Of a stretch of DNA of 32,487 nucleotides, positions 22,542-32,487 are shown piece by piece. Position 1 is the first letter of the stretch, and each line of letters starts with the position of its first letter. The stretch comes from Candidatus Saccharimonadota bacterium (GTDB lineage Bacteria > Patescibacteriota > Saccharimonadia > Saccharimonadales > UBA4665). The translations under genes and the position numbers were made by a program. The notes under the pieces are model-generated. The model searched no databases and was not told the origin of the DNA. It saw nothing but the letters and a program-made list of their open reading frames with translations. The DNA is taken from NCBI GenBank assembly GCA_020427985.1, contig JAGQNR010000009.1, positions 1 to 32,487 on the forward strand, in the 5' to 3' direction.

Positions 22542-25340
22542 ATGGGACAAGCAACTAATCAGAGCGTAAAGCGATTCTTTACAAAGCCAAAGTCAAAGGC
22601 CTACGACCAAGTTAAATGGGAAAAGCGTGATTCGGAACTCAAGAACCCTTTTACGGGTGAAATAGTTTTCCAGCAAAAGGGAGTAGAAATTCCAGAGGGT
22701 TGGTCGATGAACGCTCTCAATATTGTCGCGCAAAAATACTTTACTGGTACTCCAGGTGATGCTGACCGCGAAACATCCCTAAAACACCTCATAGACCGAG
22801 TGGTCGATACTGTGGTGCGACAAGGGCAGCAAGAGGGATACTTTGACAACGACACTGACGCCGAAAACTTTCGCGAGGAACTCAAATATGTCCTGGCGAC
22901 ACAGCGCGCAGCCTTTAACAGTCCAGTTTGGTTTAATATTGGCGCGCCAGAGCGTGCTCAGCAAGCGAGTGCGTGCTTTATTCTTGGCGTCGAAGACACT
23001 ATGCCGTCTATTTTGCAGTGGTACACCGACGAAGGCATGATTTTTAAGGGGGGTTCGGGAAGTGGTGTCAATGTTAGCTCGATTCGCTCAAGTGTTGAGC
23101 CTCTTGGCAAGAGTGCGGGGACTGCCTCGGGTCCGCTGAGCTTTATGCGCGGTGCCGATGCCAGTGCGGGCGCTATCAAGAGCGGCGGTAAAACCCGTCG
23201 TGCGGCTAAGATGGTGATTCTCGATGTTGACCATCCAGACGTAGAAGAGTTTATTTGGTGCAAAGCCATCGAAGAACGCAAGGCACGTGCCTTGCAAGAA
23301 GCTGGGTTCGACATGAGCCTTGATGGCAAAGACATCTTTAGTGTGCAGTACCAAAATGCTAACAACTCTGTACGTGTGACTGATGAGTTCATGCAGGCCG
23401 TAGTTGATAACAAAGATTGGGATCTTAAGGCAGTTAAAACCGGTAAAACCGTTCGTACAGTCAAGGCTCGCGACATTATGCGCCAGTTTGCCGAAGCAAC
23501 CTGGGAATGTGCTGATCCTGGCATGCAGTTCGACACTGTCATTAACAAGTGGCATACCACGCCAAATGCTGGGCGTATCAATGGCTCTAACCCCTGTAGT
23601 GAGTATATGCACCTTGATAATTCTGCCTGTAATCTCGCTAGCATTAACCTGCTTAAATATCTCAATGACGACTTTAGTTTTGATGTCGAGAGCTTTAAGC
23701 ACACGGTTGAACTGGTATTTACCGCTCAAGAGATACTAGTTGGCTACAGCGAATACCCAACCGAACGCATTACCAAAAACGCCAAAGCCTATCGTGAACT
23801 TGGTATTGGCTATGCTAACTTGGGTGCACTTTTGATGGCGCAAGGGTTGCCCTATGATAGCGATGAGGGTCGTGCTCAGGCAGCGGCTATCACTGCACTG
23901 CTAACTGGTCATTCATACGCTACAAGCGCTCGAATTGCCCAAAAGGTTGGCCCATTTGCCGGTTACCACAAAGACCGTGACAATATGCTTCATGTGCTTC
24001 GTATGCACCGTGAGGCGGTCAACCACATCGATGCGGGGTTAGTGTCTGAGGACCTGCTTAGCGCTGCAGCTACTGCCTGGGATGAGGCGGTCGAACTTGG
24101 CGAATTGTACGGTGTGCGTAACAGCCAAGCCAGCGTTTTGGCTCCAACTGGCACCATTGGTCTAATGATGGATTGCGACACAACAGGTATTGAACCCGAC
24201 CTAGGTCTGGTGAAGGTCAAGAAGCTTGTGGGCGGTGGCACCATGAGTATTGTGAACCAAACAGTACCACGTGCTCTTAAAGCACTTGGCTATACTCCAG
24301 AGCAGGTGAACGACATCGTAGCCTACATTGACACCGAAAAAACCATCCTTGGCGCCCCACACCTGCAACAATCGCACGAACCCGTTTTTGCTTGTTCAAT
24401 GGGTGATAACTCTATTCATTACCTTGGTCATGTCAAGATGATGGCCGCTGTTCAGCCATTCCTATCTGGCGCAATTAGTAAAACGGTCAATATGCCAGAG
24501 ACGGCAACTGTCGAGGACATTGAGCAACTCCATATCGATTCATGGCGCATGGGTCTTAAGGCAGTTGCTATTTACCGTGACAACTGTAAAGTCGCCCAGC
24601 CACTCAGTATGGCTAAAAAAGACGGTGACACTCCGAAGGACGCTGTTCAGGCTGCGCCATTGGTGGTTGCCGACGACGGCAAGATTGTCATTAAAGGTGC
24701 AGTACGCCGTAAGATGCCACGCAAACGCACTAGTCGAACTTACCGGTTCGAGGTTGCTGACCTCGAGGGATTCTTTACAGTTGGTGAATACGCAGACGGT
24801 ACTCCCGGTGAAATCTTCATCACTGTTAGCAAACAGGGTTCAACCTTGGCGGGGCTCATGGACTCTTTTGCGATTAGTATGAGTCATGGCTTGCAATATG
24901 GTGTACCGCTCAAGAGCTACGTTAAGACGTTGCGCGGTACCAGCTTTGCACCTTTTGGTATTACCGACGACCCAGATATTCGCACCGCTAGTTCAGTGAC
25001 AGATTACATTATTCGTAGGCTAGCGCTCGACTATTTGAGCTTTGATGACCGCCTAGAGCTTGGTCTTGCTAGCTTCGACGACATGCCAGAATCCCAGACG
25101 AGCTTGCTCGACGAAGAAACTGAGCCAGTAGAAACCGAAGGTATTGAAGTAGCTGAAACACGTCCAGTACAAATGAGCGTGCCAAAAGCTACTATTGCCC
25201 AAAGTACTGCGAGCGATACCCCCCAGGCCACAACCAAGGACTCAACAGCACCGCTTTGCTATAACTGTGGTAATCAGACACAGCGCTCAGGCAGCTGTTA
25301 TGTTTGTACCTCTTGTGGCAGCACAACTGGTTGTAGCTAA
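22542..25340 (+). CDS. nrdJ: Adenosylcobalamin-dependent (class II) ribonucleotide reductase, 932 aa
   Basis: Reduces ribonucleotides to deoxyribonucleotides using adenosylcobalamin to create a thiyl radical; no beta subunit gene is nearby. Family landmarks are an active-site cysteine in ASACFILGVED, the region NPCSEYMHLDNSACNLASINLL (in part: NPCSEYMHLD, CNLASIN), and PTGTIGLMMDCDTTG. The C-terminus carries a zinc-ribbon-like CYNC...CYVCTSCG...C tail (last 30 residues) typical of this NrdJ type, which relays reducing power. No intein is seen. GGGGAG precedes the ATG. The organism must obtain cobalamin, likely from a host or surroundings (inference). It is regulated with nrdR. Confidence 0.96.
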   Translation: MGQATNQSVKRFFTKPKSKAYDQVKWEKRDSELKNPFTGEIVFQQKGVEIPEGWSMNALNIVAQKYFTGTPGDADRETSLKHLIDRVVDTVVRQGQQEGYFDNDTDAENFREELKYVLATQRAAFNSPVWFNIGAPERAQQASACFILGVEDTMPSILQWYTDEGMIFKGGSGSGVNVSSIRSSVEPLGKSAGTASGPLSFMRGADASAGAIKSGGKTRRAAKMVILDVDHPDVEEFIWCKAIEERKARALQEAGFDMSLDGKDIFSVQYQNANNSVRVTDEFMQAVVDNKDWDLKAVKTGKTVRTVKARDIMRQFAEATWECADPGMQFDTVINKWHTTPNAGRINGSNPCSEYMHLDNSACNLASINLLKYLNDDFSFDVESFKHTVELVFTAQEILVGYSEYPTERITKNAKAYRELGIGYANLGALLMAQGLPYDSDEGRAQAAAITALLTGHSYATSARIAQKVGPFAGYHKDRDNMLHVLRMHREAVNHIDAGLVSEDLLSAAATAWDEAVELGELYGVRNSQASVLAPTGTIGLMMDCDTTGIEPDLGLVKVKKLVGGGTMSIVNQTVPRALKALGYTPEQVNDIVAYIDTEKTILGAPHLQQSHEPVFACSMGDNSIHYLGHVKMMAAVQPFLSGAISKTVNMPETATVEDIEQLHIDSWRMGLKAVAIYRDNCKVAQPLSMAKKDGDTPKDAVQAAPLVVADDGKIVIKGAVRRKMPRKRTSRTYRFEVADLEGFFTVGEYADGTPGEIFITVSKQGSTLAGLMDSFAISMSHGLQYGVPLKSYVKTLRGTSFAPFGITDDPDIRTASSVTDYIIRRLALDYLSFDDRLELGLASFDDMPESQTSLLDEETEPVETEGIEVAETRPVQMSVPKATIAQSTASDTPQATTKDSTAPLCYNCGNQTQRSGSCYVCTSCGSTTGCS

Positions 25341-25359
25341 ATTTTGCTCTGCAGCAATC

Positions 25360-25392
25360 ATAAAGAGAACCGGCAAGGCCGGTTCTCTTTAT
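25360..25392 (+). terminator. Bidirectional intrinsic terminator after nrdJ
   Basis: A 14-bp stem ATAAAGAGAACCGG / CCGGTTCTCTTTAT (25360-25373 and 25379-25392) with a 5-nt loop ends the nrdR-nrdJ operon. Confidence 0.9.
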
Positions 25393-25435
25393 GATGTCAA
25401 TCTTTCGCGTCCTAGACCCCAACTGCTAAGTTATG

Positions 25436-25441
25436 TATACT
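25436..25441 (+). promoter_or_regulatory. -10 element, leaderless-type start for the gene at 25449
   Basis: TATACT ends 7 nt before the ATG at 25449; no Shine-Dalgarno and no clear -35. Confidence 0.55.
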
Positions 25442-25448
25442 TGCTATC

Positions 25449-25718
25449 ATGAAGATACTAGTGCTTTATCGGCCAAATTCTGAGCATGCCAGGGGGGTGG
25501 AATCGTTTTTGCACGATTTACAGAAGCAGCATTATATACAACCACGTAATCTCAAAACGCTCAATATGGACAGCCGGGAGGGAATTTCAACTGCGAGCAT
25601 ATACGACATCATGGCGTTTCCGGCAATTCTCGTAACAGCAGACAACGGACAGTATATGAAGCACTGGGAAGGTAATTTGCCACTTATGAGTGAAGTTATG
25701 AGCTACACGCTGGTCTAA
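25449..25718 (+). CDS. Cysteine-free thioredoxin-fold-like protein, 89 aa
   Basis: The sequence follows a thioredoxin/glutaredoxin pattern. A first strand MKILVLYRP is followed by a helix at about 13-27, a strand around LNMDS, a helix at about 44-54, then a MAFPAILVT segment with a likely cis-proline, a GQYMKHWEG turn and a last helix. The protein contains no cysteine at all; where CxxC would sit there is RPNSEHAR. It therefore cannot do thiol-disulfide exchange. It lies just after the ribonucleotide reductase operon but is separated from it by a terminator and has its own leaderless-type promoter. It could be a structural or regulatory redoxin relative. The fold assignment is inference from pattern. 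Confidence 0.65.
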   Translation: MKILVLYRPNSEHARGVESFLHDLQKQHYIQPRNLKTLNMDSREGISTASIYDIMAFPAILVTADNGQYMKHWEGNLPLMSEVMSYTLV

Positions 25719-25759: not shown

Positions 25760-25788
25760 TTGAGAAAACAGGCGATAGACGCTATTAT
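25760..25788 (+). promoter_or_regulatory. Promoter of the T-box / ileS operon
   Basis: TTGAGA (25760-25765), a 17-nt spacer and TATTAT (25783-25788). The start near 25795 gives a leader of about 220 nt that holds the T-box element. The short stretch 25719-25759 shows no gene. Confidence 0.75.
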
Positions 25789-25794
25789 GTACAT

Positions 25795-26014
25795 AAGGAC
25801 GCTGTAGTTTTGCTACGTGAGTGAGTATCGGTCACGAAGTCCGTGGACAGAAAAGGCCCGCGCCCAAGTAGATTCCACCGCGCATGCTGCGATAAAGCAA
25901 GTAACGAAGTGCTAAAAGAACGGTTATCACCGCTTTTAGAAACCGGATGGTACCCCCCATTTTACCTGGGGTCCGGTGTCTAACAGGGGTGATTTTTATT
26001 TGGAGTTAACTATT
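25795..26014 (+). promoter_or_regulatory. Isoleucine T-box riboswitch with short Stem I
   Basis: The T-box bulge TGGTACC (25948-25954) matches the UGGNACC consensus. It sits inside an antiterminator-like helix: ACCGG (25942-25946) pairs with CCGGT (25973-25977), and CCCC (25955-25958) with GGGG (25968-25971). Directly before it is a perfect Stem III, CTAAAAG-AA-CGGT / ACCG-CTTTTAG (25912-25939). Near the 5' end the hairpin CGTGA / TCACG (25816-25836) has the loop GTGAGTATCGG with an ATC codon (25827-25829), a specifier for isoleucine like the very short Stem I of actinobacterial ileS T-boxes. UGGU fits a tRNA with discriminator A, as tRNA-Ile has. ileS is the second gene downstream. The expression switch is unclear: a T-run (25993-25997) suggests termination, but no strong terminator stem is obvious, and I do not see a good anti-Shine-Dalgarno. 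Confidence 0.82.
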
Positions 26015-26614
26015 ATGAGCACAATCCTTATCTACGGCGATTCTAATACCTGGGGACAAGATGCCTATTTGCAACGCTATCAAGAAGCGGTTCGATGGGT
26101 GGCGCAGCTAGGCCAAAAACTTGGCCCGAATTATCGGGTAGTACCTGCAGGGCTATCGGGCAGGGTTGCTGGCAACAGTAGTGCCATAGTGCCAATCAAG
26201 CGAGGAAAAGATTCATTTGAGCTTGTATACCGCCAAACTTTTCCGGTTGATGTGGTTATTATCGCGCTTGGCACCAATGATATTAAAGAAAAATACAACA
26301 TATCAGCCGCCACGATAGTTGACGACTTGTTGTGGTACAAGCAAAAAGTTGAGCATTTGACGGACTACACCGGAAAGCCGTTACGGCCTAAGGTGCTATA
26401 CATTGCACCGCCAAATTGCATCTGTGGAACCGTGCATTTTGCTGGTGACGAAGCAAAGCGGCGGGCGATTATTGCAGGGCTACAAGCCAATAATGTCGAC
26501 ATGGTTACAGCAGAGGATATTGATTTAAGCGAAGACGGGGTGCATTTTTCGCCAAAAGGGCACATACGTATGGCAGAAATAGTATATGACAAGCTAAAGG
26601 AGATGAAACTATGA
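26015..26614 (+). CDS. SGNH/GDSL-family hydrolase, 199 aa
   Basis: The SGNH esterase/lipase blocks are present: block I YGDSNTWG with nucleophile Ser10, a Gly in PAGLSGR (about 45-50), block III GTND with Asn88, and block V DGVHFSPKGH with Asp174 and His177. There is no signal peptide, so it acts in the cytosol, perhaps as an arylesterase or acyl-hydrolase; the substrate is unknown. Start 26015 is set by GGAG at 26002-26005, 9 nt upstream; an in-frame GTG at 25976 would lie inside the T-box helix. It is the first gene under the isoleucine T-box and its stop overlaps the ileS start (ATGA), which ties it to ileS expression. Confidence 0.9.
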   Translation: MSTILIYGDSNTWGQDAYLQRYQEAVRWVAQLGQKLGPNYRVVPAGLSGRVAGNSSAIVPIKRGKDSFELVYRQTFPVDVVIIALGTNDIKEKYNISAATIVDDLLWYKQKVEHLTDYTGKPLRPKVLYIAPPNCICGTVHFAGDEAKRRAIIAGLQANNVDMVTAEDIDLSEDGVHFSPKGHIRMAEIVYDKLKEMKL

Positions 26615-29601
26615 AGTTCAAAAGCGGTACCAGGCGACGAGCGCTAGAGTATGAAAAGGATATTGCTAAGCGTTGGGAGCGGGACAATACCTTTGAGAGG
26701 TCGGTAGAGCAACGGCCAGAAAGCAACAAATGGGTATTCTATGACGGACCACCGTTCTTAACAGGGACACCGCATCACGGCCATCTGCTCGTGAGCACCG
26801 TCAAGGATGCCATGGGCCGATTTCACACCATGAAGGGCCAGCGGGTTGAGCGTACCTGGGGCTGGGATTGTCATGGCTTACCGGCCGAGGTGTATGTAGA
26901 AAAACAACTAGGCATTGCCAGTAAAAAAGAGATTGGGACCAAAATCAGTGTTGAAGACTACGTTAAGGCGTGCCGGGCAGCCATGGTAAAGACAGGTACC
27001 GAATGGGAAGACACTATTGAGCGCCTAGGGCGCTGGGTAGAATTTCGAGGCGCCTATAAAACCATGGATAAAGAATACATGGAATCTGTTTGGTGGGCAT
27101 TTAAAACCTTGTATGAAAAGGGCAAGATTTACGAAGGTGAAAAGATTCTTGTTTACTGCACCAAAGATGCCACGCCAATTAGTAAGAGCGAAGTAGCTAT
27201 GGAGAATAGCTACCAAGTCGACACTGACCCGAGTGTATTTGTCTACTTTAAGCTCCAAGACGCCGACGAATACCTTTTGGCCTGGACAACAACACCCTGG
27301 ACACTTCCCGCTAACGTGGCTGCGGCCGTACATAAAGATGAAGAGTACTCGCTCTTAGAACACGACGGCAAAAAGTTTTATGTTGCCACCGACGCAGTTA
27401 GTCGCGTTATGCAAGATACTAAGAAACAACCATTACAGTACAACGTTGTTAAAAAAATACAGGGTTCAGAATTGGTCGGCAAAAAGTATGAGCCACTTTT
27501 CGAGAATCGTGGTCCGTCTGCTCATCAAGTGTTGCATGCAGACTTTGTGACAACAGTAGATGGCACTGGTATCGTACACGAAGCACCGGCCTACGGCGAA
27601 GAAGACTACGAACTCTGTAAGGCGCATGGCATTCCTGTGGTATCGATTGTCGATGCCGACGGTAATTACACCGAGGGCCATTGGCAGGGGCAGAACATTT
27701 GGGAGGTGAACAAGCTTATCGCTAAAACCCTTGTCGAAGAGGGTAGGGCGCTCAAGGTCGATTACATTCAGCACGAATACCCCCATTGTCACCGCTGCGG
27801 CACCAAGTTGATGTACCGGGCGCATCCAAGCTGGTTCATGGATATTCAGGGCCAAAAGCACGAGATGCTGCAGGCAAACGCTGAAACTCGCTGGGTACCA
27901 GATGTACTCAGAACAGGTCGTTTTAACAACATTATTGACCAAGCACCAGATTGGAACTTGAGTCGCGACCGCTATTGGGCAACTCCAATCCCCGTCTGGA
28001 AAGGCGTACGCAATGATGGCACCGAAGAAGTCAAGGTATTTGGGAGCTACGAAGAATTTGCGCAGTATACTGGGTTATCGCTTGATGACTACCACTTACC
28101 ACAGGTCATGAATGTGACATTTGAGATGGATGGGGTGACCATGCGGCACATAGGCAAGGTATTGGACTGCTGGTTTGAGAGTGGCAGCATGTCATTTGCG
28201 CAGTTCCACTATCCGTTCGAGAACAAGGCTAAATTTGAATCGAGTTACCCGGCCGATTTCATTATCGAGGCTATCGATCAGACTAGGGGATGGTTTTATA
28301 GTTTGCTGGCGGTTAATGTTGGGCTGTTTGACAAAGCGCCCTGGAAAAACCTGATTTGTACGGGATTTATTAACGCAGCCGATGGCAAAAAAATGAGTAA
28401 GAAACTCAAAAACTACACGGATCCAATGGAGTTGATGGACAAATATAGTGCCGATAGCTTTCGGTTTTTGATGCTGAACAGCCCACTCACCAACGGTGAG
28501 AACTTTGCCTTGGCCGACAAGGACGTTGCAGACGTAGCGCGCAAACTGAGCATGGTTTGGAATATGTACGATTTCTTTACCATGTACGCCGAAGTCGATA
28601 ACTTCTCGTTTCCGTACTCTGCATCGCGAGCAGATGCGTTTCTGGTTCACGGTATGTCTCATACCGCTCACACCGATACTCCTGCTTCCTTGCACAGCAA
28701 CAAAAACCAGAAGTTCTTAGTTGAGGTTGTGCTCGATAGACTACAAAACCCGCTCGATAGGTGGATAGTTTCGCGCTTGCATCAGTTGGTGGCTGAGGTA
28801 GAAGAGCGTACTGAGGCCTATGATCTTCAGGGAGCACTCAAGCCAATCTTGCCGTTTCTGGACGACGCCAGTAACTGGTATGTGCGTCGCAGTCGACGAC
28901 GTTTTTGGAAAAGCGAAGACGACACCGATAAAGCTGATGCTTACAAGACGCTGCATTACGTTCTGACGCGACTTTCGTACCTGCTCGCACCATTTACGCC
29001 TTTTATGGCTGACGAGCTACACAACAAGCTTGTGGGGGGCGAGAGCGTGCATCTGCAAGACTGGCTGCCAGCCGGGAGTGTCGACAGCCAGGTCTTGGCT
29101 GATATGTCACGGGCACGTCAGGTGATAGAACAAGGGCTCGCTGCTCGTATGCAGAAATCCGATAGCGAAGAGCAGGTTAAGGTGCGTCAACCACTAGCTA
29201 CACTGGTCTACGGTGGCCCAAAGCTCAATGCTTTTTACGAAGCGATGATAGCCGACGAGGTAAATGTCAAAGAAGTCAAAAACGAATCCCAGGTGAAAGA
29301 AAGTGAAGTACTGCTAGACAAATCGATCACCCCAGAGCTTAAGCGCGAAGGAATGATGCGCGAAGTAGTACGTGTTGTTCAGTCAGCCCGCAAGCAAGCT
29401 GGATTGCAAGTTGACGACCATATTTCATTAGTACTCAAAACGGATGATACTATGCTTAGCCAAGCGATAGATGACTTTAAAACAACAATTTTCAAAGAAA
29501 CATTAACAGATAAAGATGCAATAGTTAAAGATATGTTTACAACGACATCAACGATTGATGGAGCCGAAATAGCGATTGCATTAGCAAAGGTATCGGATTA
29601 G
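26611..29601 (+). CDS. ileS: Isoleucyl-tRNA synthetase, type 2 (eukaryal-like), 996 aa
   Basis: Class I synthetase charging tRNA-Ile. The HIGH motif is HHGH in TGTPHHGHLL (about residues 53-58) and KMSKS is KKMSKKL (about 594-600). The CP1 editing domain lies between them (about 190-410) and the anticodon-binding region follows. Segments GWDCHGLPAE, ESVWWAFKTLYEKG and the C-terminal LDKSITPELKREGMMREVVR are closer to the eukaryal-like type 2 IleRS than to the E. coli type; this type is often linked to mupirocin tolerance (known for the family, not tested here). A CHRC pair is seen near 390. The start overlaps the SGNH hydrolase stop by 4 nt. Controlled by the T-box upstream. Confidence 0.96.
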   Translation: MKFKSGTRRRALEYEKDIAKRWERDNTFERSVEQRPESNKWVFYDGPPFLTGTPHHGHLLVSTVKDAMGRFHTMKGQRVERTWGWDCHGLPAEVYVEKQLGIASKKEIGTKISVEDYVKACRAAMVKTGTEWEDTIERLGRWVEFRGAYKTMDKEYMESVWWAFKTLYEKGKIYEGEKILVYCTKDATPISKSEVAMENSYQVDTDPSVFVYFKLQDADEYLLAWTTTPWTLPANVAAAVHKDEEYSLLEHDGKKFYVATDAVSRVMQDTKKQPLQYNVVKKIQGSELVGKKYEPLFENRGPSAHQVLHADFVTTVDGTGIVHEAPAYGEEDYELCKAHGIPVVSIVDADGNYTEGHWQGQNIWEVNKLIAKTLVEEGRALKVDYIQHEYPHCHRCGTKLMYRAHPSWFMDIQGQKHEMLQANAETRWVPDVLRTGRFNNIIDQAPDWNLSRDRYWATPIPVWKGVRNDGTEEVKVFGSYEEFAQYTGLSLDDYHLPQVMNVTFEMDGVTMRHIGKVLDCWFESGSMSFAQFHYPFENKAKFESSYPADFIIEAIDQTRGWFYSLLAVNVGLFDKAPWKNLICTGFINAADGKKMSKKLKNYTDPMELMDKYSADSFRFLMLNSPLTNGENFALADKDVADVARKLSMVWNMYDFFTMYAEVDNFSFPYSASRADAFLVHGMSHTAHTDTPASLHSNKNQKFLVEVVLDRLQNPLDRWIVSRLHQLVAEVEERTEAYDLQGALKPILPFLDDASNWYVRRSRRRFWKSEDDTDKADAYKTLHYVLTRLSYLLAPFTPFMADELHNKLVGGESVHLQDWLPAGSVDSQVLADMSRARQVIEQGLAARMQKSDSEEQVKVRQPLATLVYGGPKLNAFYEAMIADEVNVKEVKNESQVKESEVLLDKSITPELKREGMMREVVRVVQSARKQAGLQVDDHISLVLKTDDTMLSQAIDDFKTTIFKETLTDKDAIVKDMFTTTSTIDGAEIAIALAKVSD

Positions 29602-29604
29602 TAG

Positions 29605-30300
29605 GTGAGTAGCAAAACAACAACGCCTGTAATAGGTATTACACCACATTTTGATAACGGCGTGAAGCTTCCGAAGGCCGGCCGGTCAATGATACTGAGG
29701 CGTGAATATACCGAAGCAATTGCTGCCGTTGGTGGGACACCTCTCGTGCTCAACCCAAGCATGTCGGTTGAGATAGCCCTGAGCTTATGCGATGGGTTAG
29801 TGTTATCTGGTGGTGAAGATGTGCCAGCGCATCTGTACGGTGCCACTCAGACACTTTATTTAGAGGAGCCACTCGAGAGAGTCGAGTGGGAAACGAAGCT
29901 TATTCGAGCGTTTCGACATGCTAAAAAGCCGATTTTAGGGGTATGTTATGGCATGCAACTTTTGGCGGTTGTGAACGGTGGTGCGCTTCATCAGGATATC
30001 GACACCGAAATTCCCGATGTACTGGTGCACCACAATGCCGTGACAAATGCCAGCATGAAGCATATGGTGACGTTTAGCGATGATTTTTTGGGATTTACGG
30101 CGGGACAGCAGGTAGAGGTAGCTTCGCGACATCATCAGGCAGTCGCGTTGGTGCCCGGCGAGTTTCATGTAGCAGCCAAGGCTCCCGATGGAGTGATTGA
30201 GGCGATACGCGGCGACAGGGTATATGGTATACAATGGCACCCCGAGTCAGATGAAACGGCGATGAGAATTTATCGCTCATTTGTTAAGCTTTGTGAGTAA
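29605..30300 (+). CDS. Class I glutamine amidotransferase / gamma-glutamyl hydrolase (peptidase C26), 231 aa
   Basis: The catalytic triad is visible: nucleophile Cys114 in GVCYGMQL and His211/Glu213 in QWHPES. The substrate loop LVLSGGEDV (about 66-73) is typical of the C26 family that includes PuuD (gamma-glutamyl-GABA hydrolase). The real substrate is unknown and could be another gamma-glutamyl compound. The GTG start at 29605 is 3 nt after the ileS stop, so translation is coupled and the gene is the third of the T-box operon. There is no signal peptide. A terminator-like hairpin follows at 30435-30472. Confidence 0.9.
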   Translation: MSSKTTTPVIGITPHFDNGVKLPKAGRSMILRREYTEAIAAVGGTPLVLNPSMSVEIALSLCDGLVLSGGEDVPAHLYGATQTLYLEEPLERVEWETKLIRAFRHAKKPILGVCYGMQLLAVVNGGALHQDIDTEIPDVLVHHNAVTNASMKHMVTFSDDFLGFTAGQQVEVASRHHQAVALVPGEFHVAAKAPDGVIEAIRGDRVYGIQWHPESDETAMRIYRSFVKLCE

Positions 30301-31524: not shown

Positions 31525-32487
31525 CAAAACCTAAACCCAGATTGCTGGCGATATTCGCCCGTATCCTCTCTCGCTTTACCGTGAGAGACTTTGTCGTTTC
31601 GGCTACGCGAATTGCTCGACCACAGTTGGCTGTGGGGCTTGTTTTGCTCGCCCTACCCCTGTTTTCCCTTACGCACGTAGGCACGTACGTAGGCGTGGGC
31701 AACGACCACGCCTATGCCGCCACCAGTGACAACCTCAACTTCCAAGCCAGGTTAGAAACCGCCGCTGGTGCTATTGCTGCCGACGGCTACTACAACCTCG
31801 AGTTCAAGCTCTACACCACCACTTCTGGTGGTTCTGCCCTCTGGACCGAAACCTACACTGGTGCGAACAAGGTCAGGGTTGCCAATGGCTACATCACAGT
31901 CAACCTTGGCTCACTCACCAGCTTCCCTAGCACCATACCTTGGGACCAACAGCTCTACCTCACCATGAACGTTGGTGGTACTGGTGCGAGTGCTTCTTGG
32001 GACGGAGAAATGAACCCAAGACTAAAGCTCACAGCTGTGCCATACGCCTTCAACGCCAAAACAGCCTCTGAACTTACCAAGAGCAATGTCAGTGGTACTC
32101 TTCTCTCCACTCTCTCCATCCAAGCTCCCACTGGCGGTAACCAACTCTTCCAGATTCCTGACCAGGGAGCAGGGGGAACCTACACACTTCTGACCCAAAA
32201 TACTGCCAACGGAGCATACATCCAAAACCAAAACGGTGCCGCCCAAGCTGCTAACTACTGGATAAATGGTACCGCCCGAGCCGATACCGCCATCATCACC
32301 CCGGCCCTCCGTCCAACTGCCGATGGCACTACAGCTTTCCAGATTCAAAACGCCGCCGGCACGGCAACTGTCATGAATGTCGATACTACAAACGGCACAG
32401 CAACCTTCCAAGCTATAGATACTAACGGTGCTACCATTACTACCAACACTGTCCTGGTCAGAAAGAACGCCGCCGGACAGGCTAACG
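31521..32487 (+). CDS. Large secreted adhesin/fibre-like protein, N-terminal 322 aa (partial, runs off the window)
   Basis: The frame is open to the window edge without a stop. A basic N-terminus (about 1-37) and a hydrophobic stretch (about 38-55, LAVGLVLLALPLFSL), with a likely cleavage region before AYAATSDN (about 69), form a long signal peptide. Residues about 70-200 match a common N-terminal domain of large bacterial surface and fibre proteins: NFQARLETAAG, GYYNLEFKLYTTTSGG, ALWTETYTG, ITVNLGS and the ending PRLKLTAVPYAFNAKTASEL. After that come short repeats of the type FQIQNAAGTATVMNVDTTNG (also LFQIPDQGAGG, YIQNQNGAAQA), as in stalks of long adhesins. Host-cell contact is a reasonable guess for an epibiont. 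Upstream is an overlapping small ORF and an AT-rich leader. Confidence 0.85.
   Translation, partial: MTKPKPRLLAIFARILSRFTVRDFVVSATRIARPQLAVGLVLLALPLFSLTHVGTYVGVGNDHAYAATSDNLNFQARLETAAGAIAADGYYNLEFKLYTTTSGGSALWTETYTGANKVRVANGYITVNLGSLTSFPSTIPWDQQLYLTMNVGGTGASASWDGEMNPRLKLTAVPYAFNAKTASELTKSNVSGTLLSTLSIQAPTGGNQLFQIPDQGAGGTYTLLTQNTANGAYIQNQNGAAQAANYWINGTARADTAIITPALRPTADGTTAFQIQNAAGTATVMNVDTTNGTATFQAIDTNGATITTNTVLVRKNAAGQAN

Follow-up and report, generated by a model that had tools for sequence, protein, structure and literature searches.

The leader RNA encoded upstream of ileS in this Candidatus Saccharimonadota genome is very probably an isoleucine-specific T-box riboswitch, with an anatomy resembling that of Class III T-boxes and an output by transcription attenuation. 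Beyond this locus, T-boxes with a short Stem I are probably spread throughout the Patescibacteria, covering at least Ile, Val, Asp, Asn, Tyr and Lys; in the Saccharimonadia they would constitute a new expression platform, where Stem III itself is the antiterminator and the T-box arm is present in either state.

The window, i.e. the whole stretch of 32,487 nucleotides analysed here, is the 45th contig of a 0.98 Mb genome that is 97.6% complete. Its leader sits between a sigma-70-like promoter, ending seven bases 5' of the leader start, and the start codon of an SGNH hydrolase gene. The following ileS overlaps the stop of the SGNH gene (ATGA), and a third, amidotransferase-like gene begins 3 nt past ileS:

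25760..25788, + strand: sigma-70-like promoter TTGAGA-17-TATTAT (1 found, 0.4 expected by shuffles)
25795..26014, + strand: T-box leader RNA (start of transcription predicted from the promoter position)
26002..26005, + strand: Shine-Dalgarno-like GGAG, outside the predicted terminator stem
26015..26614, + strand: SGNH/GDSL hydrolase, arylesterase-like, cargo gene (PF13472, 9.9e-11; PDB 3dci arylesterase, 4.3e-16)
26611..29601, + strand: ileS (PF00133, 6.8e-120; PF08264)
29605..30300, + strand: class-I glutamine amidotransferase-like / peptidase C26 protein (PF07722, 2.5e-45)

In several relatives, TATAAT-like boxes are visible by eye 5' of Stem I. Further upstream of the leader, positions 22542-25718 of the window hold a ribonucleotide-reductase-like gene, so named on the basis of its sequence alone, and an 89-aa ORF. 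In many relatives, too, the leader comes after the end of a small ORF that resembles it.

The leader contains the following elements. Since the minimum free energy (MFE) fold of the whole leader mixes mutually exclusive states, it was not used to define them. Helix numbers and pairing percentages refer to an alignment of 65 Saccharimonadia leaders:

25797..25842, + strand: Stem I region, with basal helix GGAC/GTCC and a side hairpin
25804-25816, + strand: side hairpin GTAG-TTTT-GCTAC, seen in the window sequence
25821..25835, + strand: Stem I specifier hairpin GTGA-GTATCGG-TCAC, 4 bp (helix 1, 99.6% paired)
25827-25829, + strand: specifier AUC in the hairpin loop, a codon that tracks the downstream gene in other leaders
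25843..25878, + strand: Stem II, GUGGA/UCCAC with a GGC/GCC cap (helix 2, 95.7% paired; both-side changes in 5/5 pairs)
25879..25899, + strand: Stem IIA/B pseudoknot, CGC/GCG and UGCU/AGCA (helix 3 and own-versus-swapped pairing)
25907..25941, + strand: RRRxG-Stem III-AA motif, comprising flank AAGUG, Stem III and AA (helices 4 and 5, both covarying)
25942..25977, + strand: T-box arm, helices A1 and A2 (helices 6 and 7, 98-99% paired; both-side changes in 8/9 pairs)

The Stem I region measures only 46 nt in total, leaving no room for a distal T-loop (IDTM) arm. Its basal helix pairs GGAC (25797-25800) with GTCC (25839-25842). A position-free test of this helix among the relatives did not separate it from controls (9.8 versus 9.3 after swapping). 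A position-fixed test, chosen after seeing that result, found a complementary trinucleotide in 37/65 relatives versus 9.3 expected after swapping, with a maximum of 18 in 1000 swaps. The window itself does not match the strict basal-helix motif, its own helix lying in a slightly different register. The specifier hairpin had been described from the letters as 5 bp long with AUC in its loop. The hairpin and its AUC are present; the CGTGA/TCACG pairing (25816-25836) turns out to be an alternative register that borrows a base of the neighbouring hairpin, and the homologous form has 4 bp.

Stem II carries an S-turn motif, recognised here as a sequence string (CAGAA ... AGUAGA, the latter at 25867-25872); its UAGA string is found in 65/65 leaders. 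The pseudoknot, which is not part of the covariance model used below, scores 8.6 with its own strands versus 5.4 when these are swapped (maximum 6.4 in 200 swaps), and reaches at least 3 bp in 58/65 leaders. Stem III is formed by CTAAAAG/CTTTTAG (25912-25939). By regular expression, the RRRxG-Stem III motif is recovered in 59/65 leaders and the AA in 63/65. In the T-box arm, ACCGG (25942-25946) pairs with CCGGT (25973-25977) and CCCC (25955-25958) with GGGG (25968-25971), enclosing the bulge UGGUACC (25948-25954), with Stem III just 5' of it; this arrangement, already reported in the sequence-only reading, is fully in place. AUC and UGGUACC are kept in the relatives as well, UGGU being read in 57/65 Saccharimonadia leaders. 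The window shows some oddities, among them a G instead of an A right after the specifier, and a C-G closing pair of helix A2 instead of the G-U wobble named as a steric sensor. Among the 65 relatives this closing pair is G-U in 26 (the commonest) and G-C in 17; the wobble was described, in a review, from glyQ/glyQS discriminators and may not strictly define Class III.

The ileS genes of related genomes are preceded by the same leader. We built a covariance model, R1, on 16 Saccharibacterial ileS leaders, one of them that of the window. In that set, aligned with MAFFT under a hand-made structure and not fitted to any model, 89.6% of cells are paired, against 35-46% in slid controls; 23/30 pairs show both-side changes and no shuffle equalled the score. 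In an alignment of 65 Saccharimonadia leaders, covariation extends to each of the seven helices; 95.6% of cells are paired (33-50% in slid controls) and both-side changes occur in 27/30 pairs. Their covariation amounts to 0.626 versus 0.251 in shuffles (0/500 shuffles reach it). Another 80 leaders from other Patescibacteria covary likewise; these two larger alignments were fitted to R1 and so lean towards its structure. As far as comparative sequence evidence goes, the T-box structure of the window is not due to chance, because hundreds of relatives carry it before ileS and every helix shows compensatory changes among them.

R1 matches 265/393 Saccharimonadia genomes, most of them outside the training set. 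In a phylum-wide sample it matches 133/380 genomes, about 100 of which lie outside the Saccharimonadia. The T-box identity proposed at the outset is thereby borne out by both covariation and distribution. The standard Rfam model, RF00230, had been suggested as a check along with compensatory changes in relatives. The latter abound; RF00230 itself has no match on the window, either at its gathering cut-off (93 bits) or even at E 10. At 13/20 sampled relatives' loci it gives sub-threshold matches of 30-75 bits, which supports the T-box assignment independently of R1. With E 0.01, RF00230 matches are found in 132/380 sampled Patescibacteria genomes, of which only 13/380 pass the cut-off, none of them from the Saccharimonadia. 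These RF00230-like T-boxes of other Patescibacteria come from the same phylum as the window and share its target type.

Outside the Saccharimonadia, R1 matches precede ileS, valS, aspS (mostly non-discriminating), lysS, tyrS and a few others, and the loop triplet follows the gene. Specifiers were called by a rule allowing one or two bases between the triplet and the end of the hairpin loop; downstream genes were named by NCBIfam for 30 representatives and otherwise by the nearest labelled neighbour. With these definitions, AUC is found at 26/31 ileS and 0/30 valS loci, and GUC at 27/30 valS and 1/31 ileS loci. The aspS leaders (n = 11) carry GAC in five cases and AAC in five, and the tyrS leaders UAC; two lysS leaders have AAG, read by eye outside the scripted count. 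In total, the triplet is cognate in 64/75 loci; 5000 label shuffles gave 23 on average and at most 37. The initial assignment of AUC as an isoleucine specifier is supported by this behaviour.

Several further observations concern these specifiers. The Val, Asp, Asn, Tyr and Lys specifiers before matching synthetases come from loci L093-L172, and some of the genomes have 2-5 matches each. Four AspRS genes, two of them non-discriminating, are preceded by a loop AAC (tRNA-Asn) and not GAC, which fits indirect Asn-tRNA formation. Six leaders of one family (f63) place a GUC hairpin, e.g. CCGG-CUGUCA-CCGG, at or just 5' of the match start, followed by a second hairpin, as a further variant of Stem I. 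Finally, a GUC-like loop is seen in one T-box leader before an aroE-like gene.

At the other end of the tRNA, five relatives have a tRNA-Ile(GAU) with ACCA as its 3' end, the complement of UGGU. Three relatives have UGGC or UGGA in place of UGGU; in one of them (G052), UGGC mismatches the discriminator A of its own tRNA-Ile. Two sequence patterns did not find the tRNA-Ile gene of the window's own genome, which may be explained by the contig starting inside an rRNA operon. The window holds the 23S rRNA 3' end, 5S rRNA and a tRNA-Thr(GGT) gene, at 1-722 and 31664-31758.

Among known systems, the window is closest to Class III T-boxes (Nocardia farcinica and Mycobacterium tuberculosis ileS; 'class II' in TBDB). 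The two share a short Stem I, a specifier in the apical loop, Stem II with an S-turn motif, the IIA/B pseudoknot, the discriminator, isoleucine specificity and ileS as a target. R1 itself retrieves ileS leaders of Micromonospora, Planosporangium and Allorhizocola, with E of 8e-15 to 5e-6, in support of the suggested likeness to actinobacterial ileS T-boxes with a short Stem I; the same search gave no match at ileS loci of Spirochaetes, Planctomycetota and Alphaproteobacteria. Judging from these matches, the sensor part is homologous to Class III or closely convergent with it. Unlike Class III, the window has a predicted terminator instead of Shine-Dalgarno sequestration and an extra side hairpin in Stem I, and related leaders of other Patescibacteria carry codons for Val, Asp, Asn, Tyr and Lys before other synthetases. 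With Class I, the canonical transcriptional T-boxes (RF00230), the window shares the UGGN/ACC arm, Stem III, control of termination and a synthetase target; it differs in having no long Stem I, and in that the 5' strand of its predicted terminator is Stem III. In TBDB, the class with a short Stem I was searched in Actinobacteria only, apart from a re-scoring of class I matches with a truncated Stem I (PMC7778990). We found no relevant paper on T-boxes in Saccharibacteria, Patescibacteria, Parcubacteria or CPR in the open-licence literature searched; a prior description is possible.

The output of the switch had appeared unclear at first sight, with a variant suspected. It is most likely transcriptional: an intrinsic terminator would compete with Stem III and not with the T-box arm. 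The predicted elements are the following:

25926..25940, + strand: predicted terminator 5' strand, AUCACCGCUUUUAGA, equal to the loop and 3' strand of Stem III
25979-25993, + strand: predicted terminator 3' strand, UCUAACAGGGGUGAU, from the MFE of the window segment
25993-26001, + strand: U-tract, UUUUUAUUU; a U-tract is present in 65/65 Saccharimonadia leaders

The U-tract lies 8-24 nt past the T-box arm in 64 of these leaders and 64 nt past it in one. The MFE of the window segment forms the terminator, at -33.1 kcal/mol versus -24.5 kcal/mol with the downstream strand left free. Freely computed MFE folds form it in 60/65 leaders and keep the T-box arm in 58, often taking in the purines 3' of Stem III; a clear terminator of the Stem III type is absent in 5/65. 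A simple hairpin-rule scan of the window found no terminator, because the terminator encloses the T-box arm.

The nearest described architecture, the actinobacterial Class III ileS T-box, is mostly translational (PMC10482949), and R1 finds actinobacterial ileS leaders too; charged tRNA could then lead to sequestration of the ribosome-binding site here as well. We consider this improbable. The actinobacterial leaders found by R1 do look translational: TTTT occurs within 90 nt in 0/14, and GAGGAG-type sites are present in most of them, along with TCGTCCTCGC in the arm as the complement. Among the named leaders from Patescibacteria, in contrast, 23/25 show TTTT within 40 nt, a contrast weakened by the difference in GC content, and the GGAG of the window lies 3' of the U-tract, outside the predicted stem. 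Because base composition differs between the actinobacterial and Patescibacterial groups, the pairing of each leader with its own strand is the stronger argument for termination. The strand preceding the U-tract pairs with its own Stem III segment at a mean of -15.5 kcal/mol, versus -9.9 kcal/mol for swapped segments (best of 50 swaps -10.6), a control weakened by the sequence that relatives share. An exact 7-nt complement is found in 54/65 leaders with their own strand, versus 15.7% for other genomes' strand types.

The same measurements bear on a terminator of the conventional kind. The terminator 5' strand of canonical T-boxes is built from the A1 and A2 3' strands, and purines on either side of Stem III clamp the duplex of tRNA and T-box (PMC7583486). 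Were this rule to apply here, the pairing with Stem III would be a coincidence. Arm-strand terminators do appear in 28 of the 80 Patescibacterial leaders outside the Saccharimonadia, in a rough sorting of folds that also gave 23 local hairpins, 10 enclosing terminators, 17 unclear cases and two leaders without a U-tract. The window itself would allow such a pairing, at -10.3 kcal/mol, between CCCC of the arm and the GGGG that precedes the U-tract. Against this, across the 65 Saccharimonadia leaders the strand before the U-tract pairs poorly with the arm (-6.7 kcal/mol), and a local hairpin yields only -1.1 kcal/mol. Its pairing with the Stem III region is not explained by Stem III itself, because much of it falls in the Stem III loop, and compensatory changes affect loop bases that are unpaired in Stem III. 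A conventional terminator therefore has only a slim chance of being correct. Weaker still is the idea of a degenerate, non-functional relic: the window deviates in the closing pair of the specifier loop, the base after AUC and the closing pair of A2, but every helix is intact, as are UGGUACC, AUC, the promoter and the predicted terminator, and it scores 107 bits with R1, in whose training set it is included.

We propose the following course for attenuation with Stem III as the switching element. The anticodon of tRNA-Ile(GAU) would dock on AUC. When the tRNA is uncharged, its ACCA end would pair with UGGU and the purines flanking Stem III would latch onto the resulting duplex; Stem III would be kept closed, and the polymerase would read into the SGNH-ileS-amidotransferase operon. 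With charged tRNA-Ile the discriminator would not be closed and Stem III would open. Its loop, its 3' strand and the purines that follow could then base-pair with the strand downstream, beneath the T-box arm, forming the terminator, and transcription would end at the U-tract. The T-box arm would be possible in both states. That tRNA binding protects Stem III we infer from canonical T-box structures; likewise, we infer from predicted folds that a stem capped by a large structured region would act as the terminator.

Between leader and synthetase, the operon varies. The leader lies 17-82 nt 5' of ileS in about two thirds of the 60 loci examined; in about one third, cargo of at least 200 nt is placed between them, encoding, among others, GNAT, inositol phosphatase (IMPase), methyladenine glycosylase (TagA-like), NUDIX, serine hydrolase, HAD or SGNH proteins. 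The SGNH gene is one passenger among many, and not the ancestral or defining target of the switch, because the leader directly adjoins ileS in most relatives. Cargo genes in this position recur in nine relatives' loci as well as in the window (26015-26614). In one locus (L211:2891-5251 and 1356-2828) ileS is split over two frames, possibly by an assembly error, and GNAT and serine-hydrolase domains lie inside the synthetase in the first of them.

Gene regulation in CPR bacteria is poorly understood. Going by the genomes sampled, the T-box family is large in these ultrasmall organisms, and its Saccharimonadia members are missed by the standard Rfam model. T-boxes with a short Stem I are described for actinobacterial ileS; here, related leaders follow five further codons, so this minimal architecture can evolve its specificity. 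In the Saccharimonadia, transcription appears to be stopped by a route undescribed for other T-boxes in the open-licence literature. A Stem III switch would combine the same sensor with a different output, which is relevant to how T-boxes change between translational and transcriptional control. If most of the sampled Saccharimonadia do control ileS by a tRNA-sensing attenuator, this circuit would be common and testable in these epibionts and would tie their synthetase expression to amino acid supply.
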